Positions 1 through 16,447 of a DNA stretch of 27,610 nt are shown here, piece by piece. The translations under genes were made by a program, and so were the position numbers. This DNA is from a virus. The stretch lies in the IMG/VR virus record IMGVR_UViG_3300046741_000010, positions 1-27,610 of that record; one strand, given 5' to 3'. Positions within the stretch are counted from its first letter, which is position 1. Every line of letters starts with the position of its first letter. Under the pieces are notes generated by a model that saw nothing but the letters and a program-made list of their open reading frames with translations, was not told the origin of the DNA and ran no database searches.

Positions 1-633
1 AAGCGCTCACAAGCCGACAAGATGTTCGCGCGCGGTTACGATTTTGGTTGGGCCGACACACCGTTCCGCGATGCAGACGGTGTGTTGCAGGTGAAGCCGG
101 GATGGGTTTCGAAGCTTGAGCTCTCGAGCCGAACGCGCTTCCACGATCACCGCGACACCGCGGCGACGCACTTGCTCAGCGGAAGCTGGGGACCAGCTTG
201 GGACATCAAAATGGTGTCAGAGTTTTTGGGACACTCCGACGTCAAGGTGACCCAAGACCGGTACGCTCACCTAACGAACGACGCGAAGCTCCGAGCGGCG
301 GCGCAGATCAATCCGGGCGCTCCGAAGATTGGCCAAACTTTGGCCAACTCATCCCGGAACCCTACTGACCTAAGTGCTTGTTATCATTCAGCTCCGGAAG
401 TAGGACTCGAACCTACGACCACTCGATTAACAGTCAACAGCATCCAATCTGATTCCGCACACTTAGGTCAGAATGTGGCCAATGTGTGGCCACTTCAAAA
501 CCCGGCCGTTCATAAGCTCGCAAAGCAAGTGCTCGAAGCTGCAATGGGCGGCGCCCCCGTGAAGGCTGCAGCGCTCGCGCTTGCTGGCGCTGTGCTCGAA
601 GCGACCGACGCCGACGAGACGGAAGCGGCCTAG
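1..633 (+). CDS. int: Tyrosine recombinase/integrase, C-terminal part (5' end outside window)
   Basis: The frame is open from base 1, so the gene begins before the window; about 210 codons are visible. This is the end of the catalytic domain of a phage-integrase-family tyrosine recombinase, which catalyses site-specific recombination between attP and attB. Visible catalytic motifs are the H-x-x-R box (HDHRDTAATHLL, in-window residues 48-59), the second His in FLGHSDVKVT, and the nucleophilic Tyr in DRYAHL (residue 88, bases 262-264). The box I Arg and the Lys lie upstream. Past about residue 100 the protein is not a typical catalytic domain: the frame reads through a tRNA-like sequence (giving VGLEPTTTRLTVNS) and ends in an Ala-rich helical tail. 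Such tRNA-derived tails are known in integrases whose att site overlaps the gene. A terminator follows the stop. Confidence 0.93.
   Translation, partial: KRSQADKMFARGYDFGWADTPFRDADGVLQVKPGWVSKLELSSRTRFHDHRDTAATHLLSGSWGPAWDIKMVSEFLGHSDVKVTQDRYAHLTNDAKLRAAAQINPGAPKIGQTLANSSRNPTDLSACYHSAPEVGLEPTTTRLTVNSIQSDSAHLGQNVANVWPLQNPAVHKLAKQVLEAAMGGAPVKAAALALAGAVLEATDADETEAA
329..350. repeat. Tandem 11-bp repeat, putative left arm-type integrase sites
   Basis: Two consecutive 11-bp units, TTGGCCAAACT and TTGGCCAACTC, share the TTGGCCAA core. One-turn spacing would place two integrase arm-binding domains on the same face of the DNA. They match the TGGCCA core of the right-arm pair. The binding role is inferred. 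Confidence 0.6.
365..471. repeat. Perfect 12-bp inverted repeat flanking the tRNA-like core
   Basis: CTGACCTAAGTG at 365-376 is exactly inverted as CACTTAGGTCAG at 460-471, with 83 bp between. The repeat is centred on the tRNA-like T arm. It could hold core-type or Xis/accessory-protein sites, or form a long-range stem. Twelve perfect bases placed symmetrically around the core are unlikely to be chance. Confidence 0.65.
393..459 (-). tRNA. tRNA-Asn(GTT)-like remnant forming the attP core
   Basis: On the minus strand the 3' half is intact. The anticodon loop CTGTTAA (427-433, anticodon GTT, Asn) sits on a stem of four pairs with one end mismatch. It is followed by a 5-nt variable loop, a perfect T arm (GTAGG-TTCGAGT-CCTAC, 400-416) and the acceptor strand TTCCGGA (393-399). 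Upstream, TGCGGAA (453-459) could pair with the acceptor at 6 of 7 positions. Only about 12 nt remain for the D arm and no GG-containing D loop is recognisable, so this is probably not a working tRNA. It is best read as a phage-carried copy of the 3' half of a host tRNA-Asn gene. Confidence 0.45.
474..493. repeat. Tandem 11-bp-spaced repeat, putative right arm-type sites
   Basis: TGTGGCCAA at 474-482 and TGTGGCCAC at 485-493 are spaced 11 bp apart. They share the TGGCCA core with the left pair at 329-350. The role as integrase arm sites is inferred from symmetry around the tRNA-like core. Confidence 0.55.
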
Positions 634-655
634 CCTTCGAGCTCCAGAACGACGA

Positions 656-691
656 AGCCCCCAGTGACCGACCGGTCGCTGGGGGCTTTTT
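656..691 (+). terminator. Rho-independent terminator after integrase
   Basis: A 14-bp stem (656-669 with 674-687, one G-T wobble) with a 4-nt GACC loop is followed by a run of five T (687-691). It lies 23 bp after the integrase stop. It also sits between convergent genes, so the same hairpin may stop leftward late transcripts, although the T-run is weaker on that side. Confidence 0.9.
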
Positions 692-717
692 CTTTCCAGA
701 ACGTGAGCCGCCTTAGC

Positions 718-2324: not shown

Positions 2325-4151
2325 CTAAAACCAAAGCTCGGCAGTCAAGCCGCCCTGCATGGCGCCATGCGCGCCGTAGTAAATCGCCGCGGTGCTCGTC
2401 GCGTTGGCGAGCGCGGTTAGGTTGTGCATGCCGGGCGCGGCGAGCCGTTGCGCTAGACGTGCGCGCAGCGGCACGAGCGACCCGCTCACGCTCGACATGT
2501 CACGCAGCCCCGTTGGCACGGTAGTCGAGTCTAGGCCGATGCCGATCGTCGCCGATGCGCCGGCCGCGTTTACGGCTGCGATGTGCTCGACGTCTATGGT
2601 GTCGATCGCTAGACCTTGCACCAGCTGGATTTTCGCCGATGCTTGGGCGTTGATTGACTGCCACGTGTCAGCTGTCGGGATCGTCCAACTGTCGAAGGTT
2701 GGCGTCCACGTGAACTGGCCGCGAATGCGGTTGCTTGCATTCCAGATGCCGCATACCGGACTGCTAGCGCCGCTGGCCGCCGAGACATGCGAGAACGTGG
2801 TCGCCGAGTCAGGCAGAATCGTTCCGACGTATCGCTGCGTAACCGAGCCGGACCTCACCCACACGCCATTCTGTTGGACGAGACTGGCTGCACGCGTGGT
2901 TGCGTTGGTCCATGGCGCCAGCACCAAGTTTGCATTTGTTAGTGATGAATAGGCGCAGAAAACATCGCATGGAATGCCAGCCGTCTGACCGGTAACGGCG
3001 ATGCTTGCCCCGGCCGCTATGGTGACGGTTTGCCACGACACGCCGTCATACAGCGCTATGCGGTTCCCGTTGTGCAGTGCCAATGTGACGGTAGAAGCAC
3101 TGCCATCCGTTGGCATGCTGGTTGCGTTGTTTGATAGTCGGAAATTGTTTAGCGACGGATCTAAAGCAACAATCCCGTGCACGTGGTCAACAGGCGCCCA
3201 TGTATAGCCGGAACCATTCGAGCTGCTACTTACGGGAGAGACAATTGAAGGTGATGCCGTGCCACGCGCCGCACCAATGGCGGCAAACGCGAGCGGTGTT
3301 GTCCCTAGTACAAATGTTGGATTGGTTACGAGAGCCCAAACCGTCCTGGAAAAGTTGGTGCCAGTCTCAACATAGACGCGCGTCCCCGGCGCTAGCTTTT
3401 CAGTGGTGTCCGCATCGGGAGCGCGGGGCCATGGCGACAGACTGACTGTGTACAGTCCGTTGTCAACCGCGTTCGATTGCGCTGTCAGCAAGAGACGCGT
3501 GCCGACCGGCCACGTAGTTCCATCGATCGTCGCCGTTCCACCTGCCAGCTGCTGCGCGACGTTACCAACCGCAACCGCACGAACATTTAGCTTATTGCTC
3601 ACGCTAAACGCATCAATCGCAGCCTTGTCCGCCGCCGATTCAAACCCCGCCACGCTAGTCGTAGCAAGCGCATGCGCGGTCCCGCCCGCCTGCACCCCAT
3701 GCGCGTGCACGTGGTCCGCATGCGCCGCCGTCCCAAGCACGCCGATCGCAGTAGTGCCGATGTCGAGCGGCGCAGTCGTCGCAAGTGGTGGTTGCGGACC
3801 CGCTGGCCCTTGCGGTCCGACGTCGCCTTGCGGACCGGTCGAACCCGTTGGACCGGGATCGCCTTGCGGACCGTCCGCGCCCGCTGGACCTACCGGACCG
3901 ACGTCGCCTTGCGGACCGTCCGCGCCCGCTGGACCTACCGGTCCGACGTCACCTTGCGGTCCGGTCGCGCCATCCGCGCCCGCTGGACCCACCGGACCGA
4001 CGTCGCCTTGCGGTCCGGTCGCGCCATCCGCGCCCGGCGAACCTTCCGGCCCTTGTGGTCCCGGCGGCCCAACCGGTCCCGGTCCGTCACTGACCGTGAC
4101 TTTCAAAACCGGCGTCGAGTTCGGATTCGGTACGACGATGAAGTCAGCCAC
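2325..4151 (-). CDS. Collagen-like tail fibre protein
   Basis: This 608-aa protein starts at GTG 4149-4151 with a strong GGAGGTG ribosome site. After a short N-terminal strand region come about 98 residues of Gly-X-Y collagen-like repeats (23-120, with recurring [16 protein letters not shown]). These are followed by a His-rich stretch (HADHVHAHG, 144-152; a second DHVHG near 322), then a module of the IDG...NGLY type (about 204-293), then a beta-rich C-terminal half that likely binds the host surface. Collagen repeats in phage fibres form trimeric rods. It lies downstream of the baseplate genes and of two other fibre-type proteins. Its GC content appears somewhat lower in the distal half than in neighbours, which would fit a recently exchanged tip domain. 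Confidence 0.9.
3792..4085 (-). repeat. Collagen-like Gly-X-Y repeat tract in the tail fibre
   Basis: About 98 codons of Gly-X-Y with near-identical DNA units (CCTTGCGG and CCCGCTGGACC recur). The high DNA identity between units makes copy-number change by slippage likely, which would change rod length. Antisense reading gives Pro/Cys/Gly-rich shadow frames. Confidence 0.85.
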
Positions 4152-4183
4152 GATGCACCTCCGTCACTCGGACCCGGACCTTG

Positions 4184-6493
4184 TTAGAGCACCACGCCCT
4201 TACCTCGAGCGTAACGCTCAAACACCAAGCACTGATCGTCGCTCCATACTTTGTTGTCGAGCACGACGTCATAGATCCGCGCCGAGCTAAACTGAGTCTG
4301 CGCCCCTGTGTTGCGCGCGCCTAGCGAAAGCGTGTGGCTCGGCGCGGCAGAGTTGAAGCCGAAGCTGGCATTGCGATAGGACGTCGTCCGCATGACTCCG
4401 TTCCGCCGGACTTGCACTGTGTTCGCGCCGGATGTGCATCCACCCAGATTGCGCAGCTCGAGCCCCGCGCCGACGTTGCGCAGAATGAAAACCTGAATCG
4501 GCTGATACAGAGATCGGTCTTCGACAAACAGCACGTAGTTGGGCGACGAAGCGCGTGACACGGCGTAGCTCGGTCCTTGCTGAGTAGACGACACCACAGA
4601 CCATATGAGCTCAAATCCGATTTTCGACGGGTCGAAGCCTGCAGTTGCGATTAGCGTCTGGTCGGCGCCTGCGATCGTAGGTTGCGCAAATATGAGCGCG
4701 AGCGTGTTGGTTGTGCCGTCGCTCATGAACGCCCAGTTCGACGCGACACCTGCCAAGTAGTAGTCAGCCGCTCCGTCGAACGCGAGGTAGTCATGGCTAA
4801 GGCCATCCGTAGCTACGGGGCAGCGCGCCGCGCCGGTCTGCGTAAAGTTTATTGGCGATGTGCCGTTGTCGACGATTGTATCGACTAGACCGCCGGTCTG
4901 CACGGTGTTGTCCGCGCGCCACCAGTGCAGCGGCGCGATGCTAGTTGAGATGTCAGACGCCGGGACCGTTGGCAGAACACCAGCCTTCGCGTCGACGTAT
5001 GCCTTCGTGGCGGCGTCGTTCGGATCGATAGGCTCAAGCACGCTCGCGATCTTCTTATCGCCTACGTCGAACACTGACGTCGAGTCGTCGTCGCGAATCG
5101 CGCTGGCCACAGCATCGGGCCGCAGCACGAGCACGTTTTGCCGTGTGCGCCACGTTAGGTCTCCCGCGATCCATATCCACTCGTAGTAAGACGCGCCGGG
5201 TACGCTGAGATTGTCGGGCGACAGTACAGTCTCGGTTCCGTCGGGCGACTCAACTGAGTGCCCCGTTGCTGGGATCATTCCGCAGCCTTCGCCGTCCACG
5301 TACACGGCGAACGAGTCCCCGTGTTTTGGACTTTGCGGCATGTTCACGGCGCCGCCGACATCGCTCGACAAGACCCATTGGTTGGGCTCAAGCGCACCGT
5401 AAGGTTGAATCGGGTATTCGAGCGGCGGGCGTGCCGAGGTGCCTGAGCCGCCGACGGGCACCCAGCGAATGTCCTCTCCGAAGTCTCGAGACACCCACTC
5501 GTACCAAGCGCCCGGCCGAAGCGGTGCGTCGTTGACGGTGTTGCGATCGATCATCAAGGACGCGCCGGCACACGTCACACTTGCGCCCGTCGTACCGCGC
5601 GACACGTAGATCGCAACGCGCCGATCGGCCTCATCGGGATCGGGCAACATCGACTCGACTCCAGTCGACGCGTTAACCCATTCCCCGAAGTCGGGGCTTG
5701 AGCCCGAGCCCAAAACGAGCCCACCGCCACCGCCGCCCGGCGGTAGCCACTCTGCGTTACCTGCATCGATTGCCGTAAGCACGTCGCCGGGACTCGGCGG
5801 CGCCGAACCTCCGAGCTCGACTAACCCGGCGTTAGTGATCAAGCGCTTCCCGACACCGGCCGTGTCACTCACGAGCCCCCAAAGTGCGGCGCCGTCCTCG
5901 TGATAAAAAACCCACTCGTAATCAGCGCCCGGCAACAGAGCTGCGCTCGTCCCGAGCACACCATCGAGCCCTTGAATCTGCGATGCGCCCAAGACGTTGA
6001 TCGTCACTGGCACCGTGACGTCCCGCCCTACGTACAACGCGAAGCGCGCGTCGACGGGCGGCGCCTCGAGCGACGACACGATATAGACGACGACCGGATC
6101 GGTCGCAGCGGGTGGCTGCAGCACGAAGCCCCACGTGCCCGAAGTGATCGTCGCCGAGCCGACAGAGCTCGTCCAAAACTTGATCGACGGATCGTAGTGC
6201 AGTCCGGGGACCCGCCAAATAGCATGCTCCGCGTCGACTGCCGTGAGCACTTGTCCGGGAACGGGCGGCGCCGCTCCGCCGATATCCACAGGAGCGCCCG
6301 GCACGTTCGTCTCGAGATCGCCGGTTGCTGGCGCGTTTTGCCACGTCGCGGTAGTCGACGACGTTGCGGTTAGCACCTGGTTCGCGAGCGGCGGCGGCGC
6401 GTTGCCTACGTCGACGACGACGCCGCTCGTCGACGTTGCAAGCTTGGTTGCCGCCGAAGCTCCAGATAGTAGGGCATCGAGATACGAAGACAT
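4184..6493 (-). CDS. Multi-domain tail fibre/spike with C-terminal LamG-like lectin domain
   Basis: This 769-aa protein starts at ATG 6491-6493 (AGAGGAG upstream); the longer frame extends into the preceding gene without a ribosome site. The N-terminal part has short repeats of the form PPP-x-x-Q-VLTA...W (near 33-52, 77-93 and 231-250). About three copies of a roughly 95-aa beta module follow, each with FALYV- or VAIYV-like strands and a PGA-x-YEW motif (near 150-210, 292-345 and 395-448). A linker with PNDAATKAYVDAK (about 491-503), typical of fibre trimerisation segments, precedes a C-terminal region (about 520-769) starting PLHWWRAD that looks like a LamG/concanavalin-type jelly roll. The last domain probably binds surface glycans. 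Neighbours are two other fibre-type genes. Confidence 0.87.
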   Translation of the reverse strand: MSSYLDALLSGASAATKLATSTSGVVVDVGNAPPPLANQVLTATSSTTATWQNAPATGDLETNVPGAPVDIGGAAPPVPGQVLTAVDAEHAIWRVPGLHYDPSIKFWTSSVGSATITSGTWGFVLQPPAATDPVVVYIVSSLEAPPVDARFALYVGRDVTVPVTINVLGASQIQGLDGVLGTSAALLPGADYEWVFYHEDGAALWGLVSDTAGVGKRLITNAGLVELGGSAPPSPGDVLTAIDAGNAEWLPPGGGGGGLVLGSGSSPDFGEWVNASTGVESMLPDPDEADRRVAIYVSRGTTGASVTCAGASLMIDRNTVNDAPLRPGAWYEWVSRDFGEDIRWVPVGGSGTSARPPLEYPIQPYGALEPNQWVLSSDVGGAVNMPQSPKHGDSFAVYVDGEGCGMIPATGHSVESPDGTETVLSPDNLSVPGASYYEWIWIAGDLTWRTRQNVLVLRPDAVASAIRDDDSTSVFDVGDKKIASVLEPIDPNDAATKAYVDAKAGVLPTVPASDISTSIAPLHWWRADNTVQTGGLVDTIVDNGTSPINFTQTGAARCPVATDGLSHDYLAFDGAADYYLAGVASNWAFMSDGTTNTLALIFAQPTIAGADQTLIATAGFDPSKIGFELIWSVVSSTQQGPSYAVSRASSPNYVLFVEDRSLYQPIQVFILRNVGAGLELRNLGGCTSGANTVQVRRNGVMRTTSYRNASFGFNSAAPSHTLSLGARNTGAQTQFSSARIYDVVLDNKVWSDDQCLVFERYARGKGVVL

Positions 6494-6507: not shown

Positions 6508-7350
6508 TTAGGGGTGACTGCTCGGGCCGAAGTCGGTGTAATCGACTGCCATCGCGCGAAACAGCGACGAGCTCGCCGCCGCGCCACTCACAACAAGATG
6601 CATGGTCGCACTGTCCGCAGGACAAAACGCATCGCCGGTCCACAACGCCGCAGCCAAATCGCCCTCAACATCAAAGCTAGTCAGGTCCACCAATACCGTC
6701 TGTGCAACCGCGCCGCTACTGAAAGAGTACGACCGAAGATACAGCGAGAAAGTCAGCGCGACTTGCCCTGCAGGTTGATGTCCGAACACCCAAATCTTCG
6801 TGCGGTGTGCTCCGTTCGGAACCGCAAAGGGAATCTCCCATACACCGCCAAACGTCCCGTTGAAGCGCACTTCGCTGCTAACGTCGAGATACGCGTTATA
6901 GTTTGACGGCGCGCTCGTTACGTTCGCGCCAGCCGATGCCCCGATAATGCGCCGCTCCGCTTTCGGCGCAGCGTACAGAAAGTCGCCTGCCGACAGCTCC
7001 CCCGACACGACTCCAGTGTCCGCCGTCAACGAGTGAAGGTCCGTTGCTCCCGTCACCGTGAGTGACGTTGCCGTGAGATCTGCGAGCGACGTCGCGCCCG
7101 GCGTGACGGTGAGTGACGTTGCCGTGAGAGCCGCCGTGTTCACCGCTCCGAAGGTATTCGTTCCCGTGAACGTGTTGCCGCCGGACTTTTGCGCGGCTCC
7201 ATCGGCGAGTAGTTTCAAGTACCGCGAACGGTTCGCGAGCACTTGAGAGATCGCAGTCACGTTCGCCGCGCGCACTGCGCCCGAGTCGGTTCCATCGGGA
7301 ACGGTTACGGTCGGGTCAAACGTTGCAGCTTCGGTTAGTACGTGAGACAT
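6508..7350 (-). CDS. Putative tail fibre protein, N-terminal baseplate-attached segment
   Basis: This 280-aa protein begins at ATG 7348-7350 (AGGGAG upstream). The first 50 residues are helical. They are followed by Thr/Ala-rich short repeats (TATSLTV twice, with GNTFTGTNTF before), typical of the shaft region of phage fibres, and then a beta-rich C-terminal domain with regularly spaced aromatic residues. It lies directly after the gpI-like gene, where P2-like phages encode fibre gpH, and may be the connecting fibre segment or an independent short fibre. No lectin motif is evident. Confidence 0.8.
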   Translation of the reverse strand: MSHVLTEAATFDPTVTVPDGTDSGAVRAANVTAISQVLANRSRYLKLLADGAAQKSGGNTFTGTNTFGAVNTAALTATSLTVTPGATSLADLTATSLTVTGATDLHSLTADTGVVSGELSAGDFLYAAPKAERRIIGASAGANVTSAPSNYNAYLDVSSEVRFNGTFGGVWEIPFAVPNGAHRTKIWVFGHQPAGQVALTFSLYLRSYSFSSGAVAQTVLVDLTSFDVEGDLAAALWTGDAFCPADSATMHLVVSGAAASSSLFRAMAVDYTDFGPSSHP

Positions 7351-14983: not shown

Positions 14984-16447
14984 TCACGCCGACGCCGTAA
15001 ACAACACCTGCAGCGCTGGATTGACAAATCCGATCTCTACGTCGAAATATTCAACGTAGCCGAGCGGCAGCACTCGTACGCGCCCGTGAATGGTTTTCGT
15101 CGACAAGATGTTGTCGTTACGCTGCACCTCGAAGTACGCGTCGCTTACCTTCGGGACCGGCATAAGCGCGGAGCGAAGCGCGTTCGTCCCGCCTGCGTTG
15201 AGTTCCATCGCCTCGGACTTCAGGATGTAGCCCGTCTTTTTGTCGAGCACGATCCCCTGATTCACGCGGCGCAGTAGGAACTGATAAATCACATCCTCCG
15301 CGATGTTGATGATCAACCGGTGTGGGATCAAATAGAAGTCCGACCCGCTCGCGCTCATGATGCGCGGCCGGTTGACGTAGATCCCTTGGACGCCGATCCA
15401 AGTACGAAGCACCGTGAACCGTGCATCGTCCAGCCCTGGAAATAGCGTCTCGTCGTGTAGCCCCTGCACCGGGTTACCGTTCGCGTCGCGGAGCGCAACG
15501 CCCGGCAACGCACCGAGATTCACATCGGCGATATCGACTTCCTCCGAGACGATGTTCTGCAGCGGCGCCACGGCATACGACGCCGGGCGCGTGTAAATCT
15601 TGCCGTCGATCGATGATGCGATCGTCGCAGCGCCTGCGCAGATCGAGCCGAACGTCGTCGCGAACAATCCCCACTCCGACGACAACGCCGCCAGATACGC
15701 CGCTTCGGTTTCGCCAGTCGTCGGCAAACGAGCGTTCGCGATATACATCCGCGGCTTGTGGTTCGCCTGCAGCCCGACAAACTTCTGATCGATCGCGAGC
15801 GCGACGTTCTGAATGACCGGCGGAACAATGAAGCAGATACGCCAGTTCACGACACTCAGCGCCAGCGCGTCGATCGCCGCCGTGATGCCAGCGACGTCCG
15901 CAGTCGGCGCCGACGTCGTGAACGTTACAGCGTCGTTCGCGACGATCGTTCCAGCCGCAAGCGCGAGCACGATCCCGGTCCCCGGAATAGTGAGCGTCGT
16001 CGCGGCGCCTAGCGACTGCAACGCGCTCACGTTGCGACCACCGTCGATCGTGTAGCGATACGTGATGCCGGCGGTTCCGACCGTGCCCGGTCCGACGAAC
16101 GTCACCTTCACGTTGTAAGCCTGTGCTGGCGCCGCTGTGACGTCGGCGGTAATGACCGACGTTCCGGTTCCGGTAAACGTCAACGTCCCGATCGCGCCCG
16201 GTGTCGCCGCCGCGCAACGAATCACGACGATCGGACGCCCGTACAGCTCGATCGAGCGCGCACCCGCTTCGACGAGATCGCCCGCTCCAAAATCGGCTTG
16301 TAGCGACTTCGTTCGACCGTACGTCGCTGGCATGTTGAGCGGTCCGCTTGACGACGTACCGATCAACGCAAGCAACGCCCCCTCGCTGTCCGGCAACACG
16401 CCGAGCGCGTTGTCGATCTCCGTAATAGTGACTGCAGGTTGTGTCAT
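14984..16447 (-). CDS. Tail sheath protein
   Basis: This 487-aa protein has the architecture of myovirus sheath subunits. The N-terminal TEIDNALGVLPDSEGALLALI donor-strand region is followed by a variable beta domain (about 85-185), the conserved core with SYAVAPLQNIV, then LRTWIGVQGIYVNRPRIMS (about 353-371) and a C-terminal domain ending GYVEYFDVEIGFVNPAL. The sheath contracts to drive the tube through the envelope, so this gene alone shows a contractile tail. The ATG at 16445-16447 has GAGGATTAG upstream. Confidence 0.95.
   Translation of the reverse strand: MTQPAVTITEIDNALGVLPDSEGALLALIGTSSSGPLNMPATYGRTKSLQADFGAGDLVEAGARSIELYGRPIVVIRCAAATPGAIGTLTFTGTGTSVITADVTAAPAQAYNVKVTFVGPGTVGTAGITYRYTIDGGRNVSALQSLGAATTLTIPGTGIVLALAAGTIVANDAVTFTTSAPTADVAGITAAIDALALSVVNWRICFIVPPVIQNVALAIDQKFVGLQANHKPRMYIANARLPTTGETEAAYLAALSSEWGLFATTFGSICAGAATIASSIDGKIYTRPASYAVAPLQNIVSEEVDIADVNLGALPGVALRDANGNPVQGLHDETLFPGLDDARFTVLRTWIGVQGIYVNRPRIMSASGSDFYLIPHRLIINIAEDVIYQFLLRRVNQGIVLDKKTGYILKSEAMELNAGGTNALRSALMPVPKVSDAYFEVQRNDNILSTKTIHGRVRVLPLGYVEYFDVEIGFVNPALQVLFTASA

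Follow-up and report, generated by a model that had tools for sequence, protein, structure and literature searches.

Positions 329 to 495 of the viral DNA analyzed here (27,610 nucleotides, "the window") very likely constitute the attachment site (attP) of a tyrosine integrase, lying in frame toward the 3' end of int, the gene for that integrase, and having the 3' half of a tRNA-Asn as its core. We put the probability of this reading, which was already that of the initial annotation, at roughly 90%. It now draws on the spacing of candidate arm-type sites in a related contig (L002), a synonymous divergence of 0 from that contig, a compensated change in the tRNA T-stem, and tRNA halves lying between arms in many members of a clade of related integrases. 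The features of the region are as follows.

1..633, + strand: 3' part of the tyrosine integrase gene int (Pfam match; 76% identity to L002 int)
329..347, + strand: candidate left arm-type pair, TTGGCCAAACTTTGGCCAA, with TGGCCA at 330 and 341 (spacing; same place and spacing in L002)
365..376, + strand: left half of a 12-bp inverted repeat, not supported as a component (chance level; 9/12 in L002)
393..435, − strand: tRNA-Asn 3' half, the putative attP core (Rfam, tRNA-Asn matches, ARAGORN hybrids)
400..416, − strand: T-arm of the tRNA-Asn half (pair 401/415 compensated relative to L002)
427..433, − strand: anticodon loop CTGTTAA (GTT, Asn), where strand exchange is predicted
436..630, + strand: native C-terminal tail of free-phage Int, ~65 residues, expected to be missing from the integrated form
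460..471, + strand: right half of that repeat, with the same lack of support (chance level; 9/12 in L002)
475..493, + strand: candidate right arm-type pair, GTGGCCAATGTGTGGCCAC, with TGGCCA at 476 and 487 (spacing; symmetry with the left pair)
654..693, + strand: intrinsic terminator of int (−32.4 kcal/mol, z of −7.8; stem covaries in L002)

The reading frame of int is open from base 1 of the window to the stop at 633, other forward frames in the region contain stops, and the product matches the Pfam family Phage_integrase (PF00589; E of 5e-8). L002, a 43.9-kb viral contig and the sole close relative known of the window phage, carries a complete int of 593 residues to which the window int is 76% identical, and the start of the window falls inside the gene. 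The catalytic Tyr lies in ..VTQDRYAH.., and all attP elements are 3' of it and in the same frame, in the order TGGCCA pair, antisense tRNA-Asn 3' half, TGGCCA pair, tail ending at 633, and terminator. The earlier placement of an attP inside an open reading frame thus holds, as all of its elements fall within the int frame at 1-633, which is open throughout. An AlphaFold model of Int from a two-row alignment was unusable (mean pLDDT of 36), except for a bbb-a arm-domain-like N-terminus at 14-60. Elsewhere in the window, a tail sheath gene (14984-16447, − strand) matches those of Thermus phage Riverbug, Meiothermus phages MMP7 and MMP17, and Myxococcus phage Mx4 at 30-34%, and therefore the window phage has a contractile tail.

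Candidate arm-type repeats and a tRNA-Asn half within int

Two copies of TGGCCA spaced 11 bp apart had been reported on each side of the core, and they are present at 330/341 and 476/487. Only 6 further copies occur elsewhere in the 27.6-kb window, and among all other 6-mers of the window none makes two such pairs within 60 to 250 bp, at 11 bp or any other spacing from 8 to 15. Moreover, such a double pair arose in 0 of 200 Markov-simulated windows, and the left and right pairs together make a 17-nt inverted repeat that is 88% complementary. By sequence, then, paired putative arm-type sites are present on either side of the tRNA core, and we consider the TGGCCA pairs to be candidate arm-type sites, two per side, on the grounds of their spacing and symmetry. 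The initial annotation had also included a 12-bp perfect inverted repeat. The repeat does exist (365-376/460-471), but an attP role for it is unsupported: 0.76 perfect 12-bp inverted repeats are expected per window, and the match in L002 is 9/12. It was rejected both as a core-type and as an arm site for being at chance level and unconserved in L002. The elements are nested as described, but not with perfect symmetry, since their centers differ (411 for the arms, 418 for the 12-bp repeat, and 430 for the anticodon loop).

The proposed tRNA-Asn-like core was borne out as an antisense tRNA-Asn 3' half at 393-435 with a GTT anticodon, a T-arm, the acceptor 3' strand, and a discriminator G at 393. 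The same 45 nt agree at 82-92% with tRNA-Asn genes of bacteria and phages, and tRNA identity stops just past the anticodon loop. The Rfam tRNA score of the core (22.4 bits) is under threshold because the tRNA 5' half is missing, and ARAGORN called no complete tRNA at the site. Crossover in the anticodon loop is a recognized class of tRNA integration (PMC4383910), and the phage tRNA 3' half begins at the anticodon loop, as in Islander site A (the anticodon-loop class).

Divergence between the window and its closest relative

Nucleotide identity between the window and L002 is 71% in 1-326 and 97% in 367-495, and dS is 1.51 in the int body and 0 in 367-495. Among codons for identical amino acids, 38/38 are themselves identical in 367-495 versus 35/75 in the body (p of 6e-10). 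Loss of the arms from relatives that keep the integrase had been named as grounds for refutation; the outcome is favorable to attP, as L002 int retains all four arm sites at identical spacing. Identity is mosaic, with arms and core conserved and with the spacer at 348-366 and the DNA beyond 495 diverged. The T-arms differ at the pair 401/415, which is T-A in the window and C-G in L002 (+ strand letters), and because the changes are a compensated pair, the core is constrained to function as tRNA. We conclude from the comparison that 329-495 is evidently under selection as DNA.

A second near-identical block, at 571-661, comprises the end of int (AALALAGAVLEAT) and 28 nt past the stop, with diverged DNA around it. 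Neither attP nor the terminator alone explains its conservation.

Related integrases and comparable systems

A wider search and an HMM defined a clade of 31 integrases that includes that of the window. A tRNA T-arm lies antisense within the int frame in 20/31, 78 to 167 nt past the Tyr codon; two more, L102 and L103, look embedded judging from the peptide only. Nine of the 31 have short C-termini, with a T-arm just past the stop in three (L078, L093, and L094). The embedded anticodons are as follows.

Asn GTT: window, L002
Arg CCG: L034, L077, L086, L098, L099
Arg ACG: L083
Arg TCT: L091
Thr CGT: L007, L035, L080, L089, L095
Met CAT: L084
Trp CCA: L096, L100
Val CAC: L033

Pairs spaced by 11 bp flank the core in many clade members, and a strong 17-nt arm inverted repeat (14-17 of 17) is found in eight (window, L002, L034, L035, L077, L086, L096, and L099). 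On a tree that leaves out the tails (a quick one, with long branches and with 21 embedded rows including L102 and L103), the embedded state changes 5 times versus 13.6 with shuffled labels, a value this small being reached in 0/500 shuffles. One branch of 11 rows (99) is entirely embedded, and L034 and L077 cluster with L002 (98).

Some relatives look integrated. In L007, from a bacterial metagenome-assembled genome, the int frame terminates within an intact tRNA-Thr, and a host-like gene lies past the tRNA. L091 has an intact tRNA-Arg within the int frame at a contig end, and L157, in another bacterial genome, breaks off in a tRNA-Thr core preceded by an 11-bp arm pair. In L100, int ends with an intact tRNA-Trp (4138-4211) and a truncated tail, CSTN, and L096, with an Int 87% identical to that of L100, has half a tRNA-Trp and a tail of ~50 residues, as well as inverted right arms. 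L100 was rejected as the integrated form of L096: its intact tRNA-Trp is flanked by phage genes on either side, and L100 is therefore a phage variant rather than a host junction. Also set aside were L010 and L011, viral contigs that carry the left arm sequence exactly but are unrelated chance matches, and L008, an unrelated tRNA-rich contig. L008, a 74-kb viral contig, carries a run of broken antisense tRNA-like pieces at 5200-5420.

An attP within a tyrosine integrase gene is known from Myxococcus phage Mx8 (PMC6070905; PMC4701971; PMC4383910). There, integration replaces the C-terminus of Int and alters its specificity (PMC6070905); 112 C-terminal residues give way to 13, and the prophage Int is less active (PMC4701971). 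A 2016 paper cited Mx8 among the very few elements with att sites within their own integrase gene (PMC4701971). In the Mx8 genome (NC_003085), GTGACAGCG occurs at 6370 and 6381 as an 11-bp pair, followed by a tRNA T-arm and a third copy at 6582, all in the int frame. Shared with the window are the attP in int, the core of an antisense tRNA 3' half, the direct repeats spaced by 11 bp, and a long tail, which is replaced on integration in Mx8 and predicted to be so in the window phage. The arms differ, however, being two inverted pairs in the window and one pair plus a single copy, of different sequence, in Mx8. Mx8 Int falls outside the clade on the tree, scores 59 bits with the HMM versus at least 177 for full-length clade members, and shows no BLAST similarity to L002 Int (E of 3.7). 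As Mx8 Int is outside the clade, the window design would be Mx8-like in its working but not necessarily homologous. What appears new relative to Mx8 is that the embedded layout recurs over a whole integrase family with different tRNA targets, and we found no description, in the literature searched, of a whole clade that keeps an embedded attP while changing its tRNA target.

Other systems resemble the window in part. Archaeal suicidal integrases (SSV1, pTN3, and pT26-2 types) likewise carry the att site in the integrase gene, which is split when they integrate, so that the catalytic part ends up in a fragment of its own (PMC8371274). In the window, by contrast, the site lies past the catalytic Tyr, and the tail alone would change. 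When streptococcal ICEs that target rumA integrate, their integrase gene has its 3' end exchanged (PMC4701971). They differ from the window in having a serine recombinase and a protein-gene target. In Brujita-type mycobacteriophages, integration also changes the C-terminus of a protein, but attP sits in the repressor gene and not in int. Thermus phage phiMa (MH673674) has, like the window, a tRNA-like core by int with two repeats 11 bp apart on either side, except that its int stops before the first arm and the att region is outside the frame. That region (L003 1690-1931) is unannotated, lies directly past the int stop, and has TGGTGGTCA repeats, two per side.

Two alternatives would deny the region, or its repeats, a role in attP. 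The near-identity of 367-495 could stem from recent recombination or from a scrap of tRNA that both phages share, free of functional constraint, and indeed just two close sequences exist (the window and L002) and short homologous tracts between phages are common. The conserved stretches stop at the arm ends, however, and a diverged spacer parts the left arms from the core, so the pattern is not that of a single recombination tract. Moreover, the T-stem difference is a compensated pair, and other clade members carry different core sequences between equivalent arms. We consider such a tract or scrap very improbable. Alternatively, the TGGCCA pairs might be operator or other regulatory sites of int, as repressors can bind palindromic paired motifs and the regulation of intS in KplE1 acts at the att region. 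The KplE1 intS gene is a case of tight integrase-gene regulation (PMC2951348). The pairs, however, sit at the 3' end of int and flank the core on both sides, relatives have paired repeats around their tRNA core that are equivalent but of different sequence, and the 11-bp pairs of Mx8 (GTGACAGCG) and phiMa (TGGTGGTCA) lie around a tRNA core as well. A regulatory role in place of an arm-site role is thus highly unlikely, and we favor an embedded attP.

Proposed integration and the integrase tail

How the embedded attP would be used can be modelled from its layout. The arms would be the two TGGCCA copies per side, one helical turn apart and inverted across the core, and strand exchange would occur at a predicted crossover within the anticodon loop of the tRNA-Asn half. 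On entry into a host tRNA-Asn gene, the host 5' half would be joined to the phage 3' half and the tRNA regenerated. The int body would then adjoin the restored tRNA gene and read antisense through it, and as a consequence the tail of prophage Int would be swapped: the native tail of ~65 residues would be lost and a short host-encoded tail gained, while the native tail and right arms would shift to the opposite prophage end. When the phage 3' half was joined to six real tRNA-Asn 5' halves, ARAGORN called tRNA-Asn for 5/6 hybrids and, for the sixth, a tRNA without a clear anticodon. In the modelled swapped frame, int gains about 5-10 host-encoded residues before it reaches a stop or leaves the tRNA.

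Because a host attB was not found, we infer integration and recombination from the phage side. A single scan of genome contigs for a host gave L007 as the sole match. None of 149 genomes of the L007 phylum contained the exact tRNA-Asn 3' half, and a looser pattern was absent from 59 genomes. Plasmid and phage tRNA-Asn matches (82-92%) are spread over too many taxa to indicate a single one. A change of Int activity on integration, known only for Mx8, may occur here as well.

Is the site an intact attP, and does its tail matter? As the window begins within int, its left side is short, and 329-495 could in principle be a prophage junction (attL or attR). In L002, however, phage genes lie on either side of the same site with no complete tRNA, and the window site is whole. 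Phage genes on both sides thus indicate an unsplit, unintegrated attP, and a junction is extremely unlikely. A second question is whether attP is real and the read-through incidental, the int frame being open by luck in GC-rich DNA and the tail functionless. The stop rate in other frames is just 0.019 per codon, such that any one tail would be open by chance in 10-30% of cases, nine clade members end int before attP, and a profile search found no significant tail homology over the clade. Nor was homology of the window tail to the Mx8 tail or to other clade tails significant against shuffles. On the other hand, in every one of the 15 loci scored as entering the T-arm, the frame continues without a stop for at least 63 codons more, with a chance of ~0.30 each, for lineages that are not fully independent. 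Moreover, the embedded trait clusters on the tree over deep divergence, and the C-terminus matters in Mx8 (PMC4701971). Finally, the tails of the window and L002 differ by one 3-base in-frame indel, have a dN below dS (0.38 and 0.92, respectively, in 496-570), and share the identical stretch AALALAGAVLEAT. We regard incidental read-through as rather unlikely, and there is moderate evidence that the tail is functionally relevant.

More tentatively, and with somewhat less than even odds, we suggest that integration switches Int from the native tail of the free phage to an antisense-tRNA tail in the prophage and that attP is a heritable, retargetable cassette in a widespread clade. If so, the arrangement would provide a built-in switch of directionality or activity, and the tRNA half would have been exchanged in evolution while the layout of arms, core, and tail was kept. 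With ~20 embedded cases, for tRNAs of at least six amino acids, the clade allows tail swapping coupled to integration to be tested comparatively as a form of integrase control. It may show how an integrase can change its tRNA target with attP constrained as protein, as tRNA, and as a site all at once. Ultimately, compact int-attP units of this kind may serve as self-contained modules for integration into many tRNA genes.
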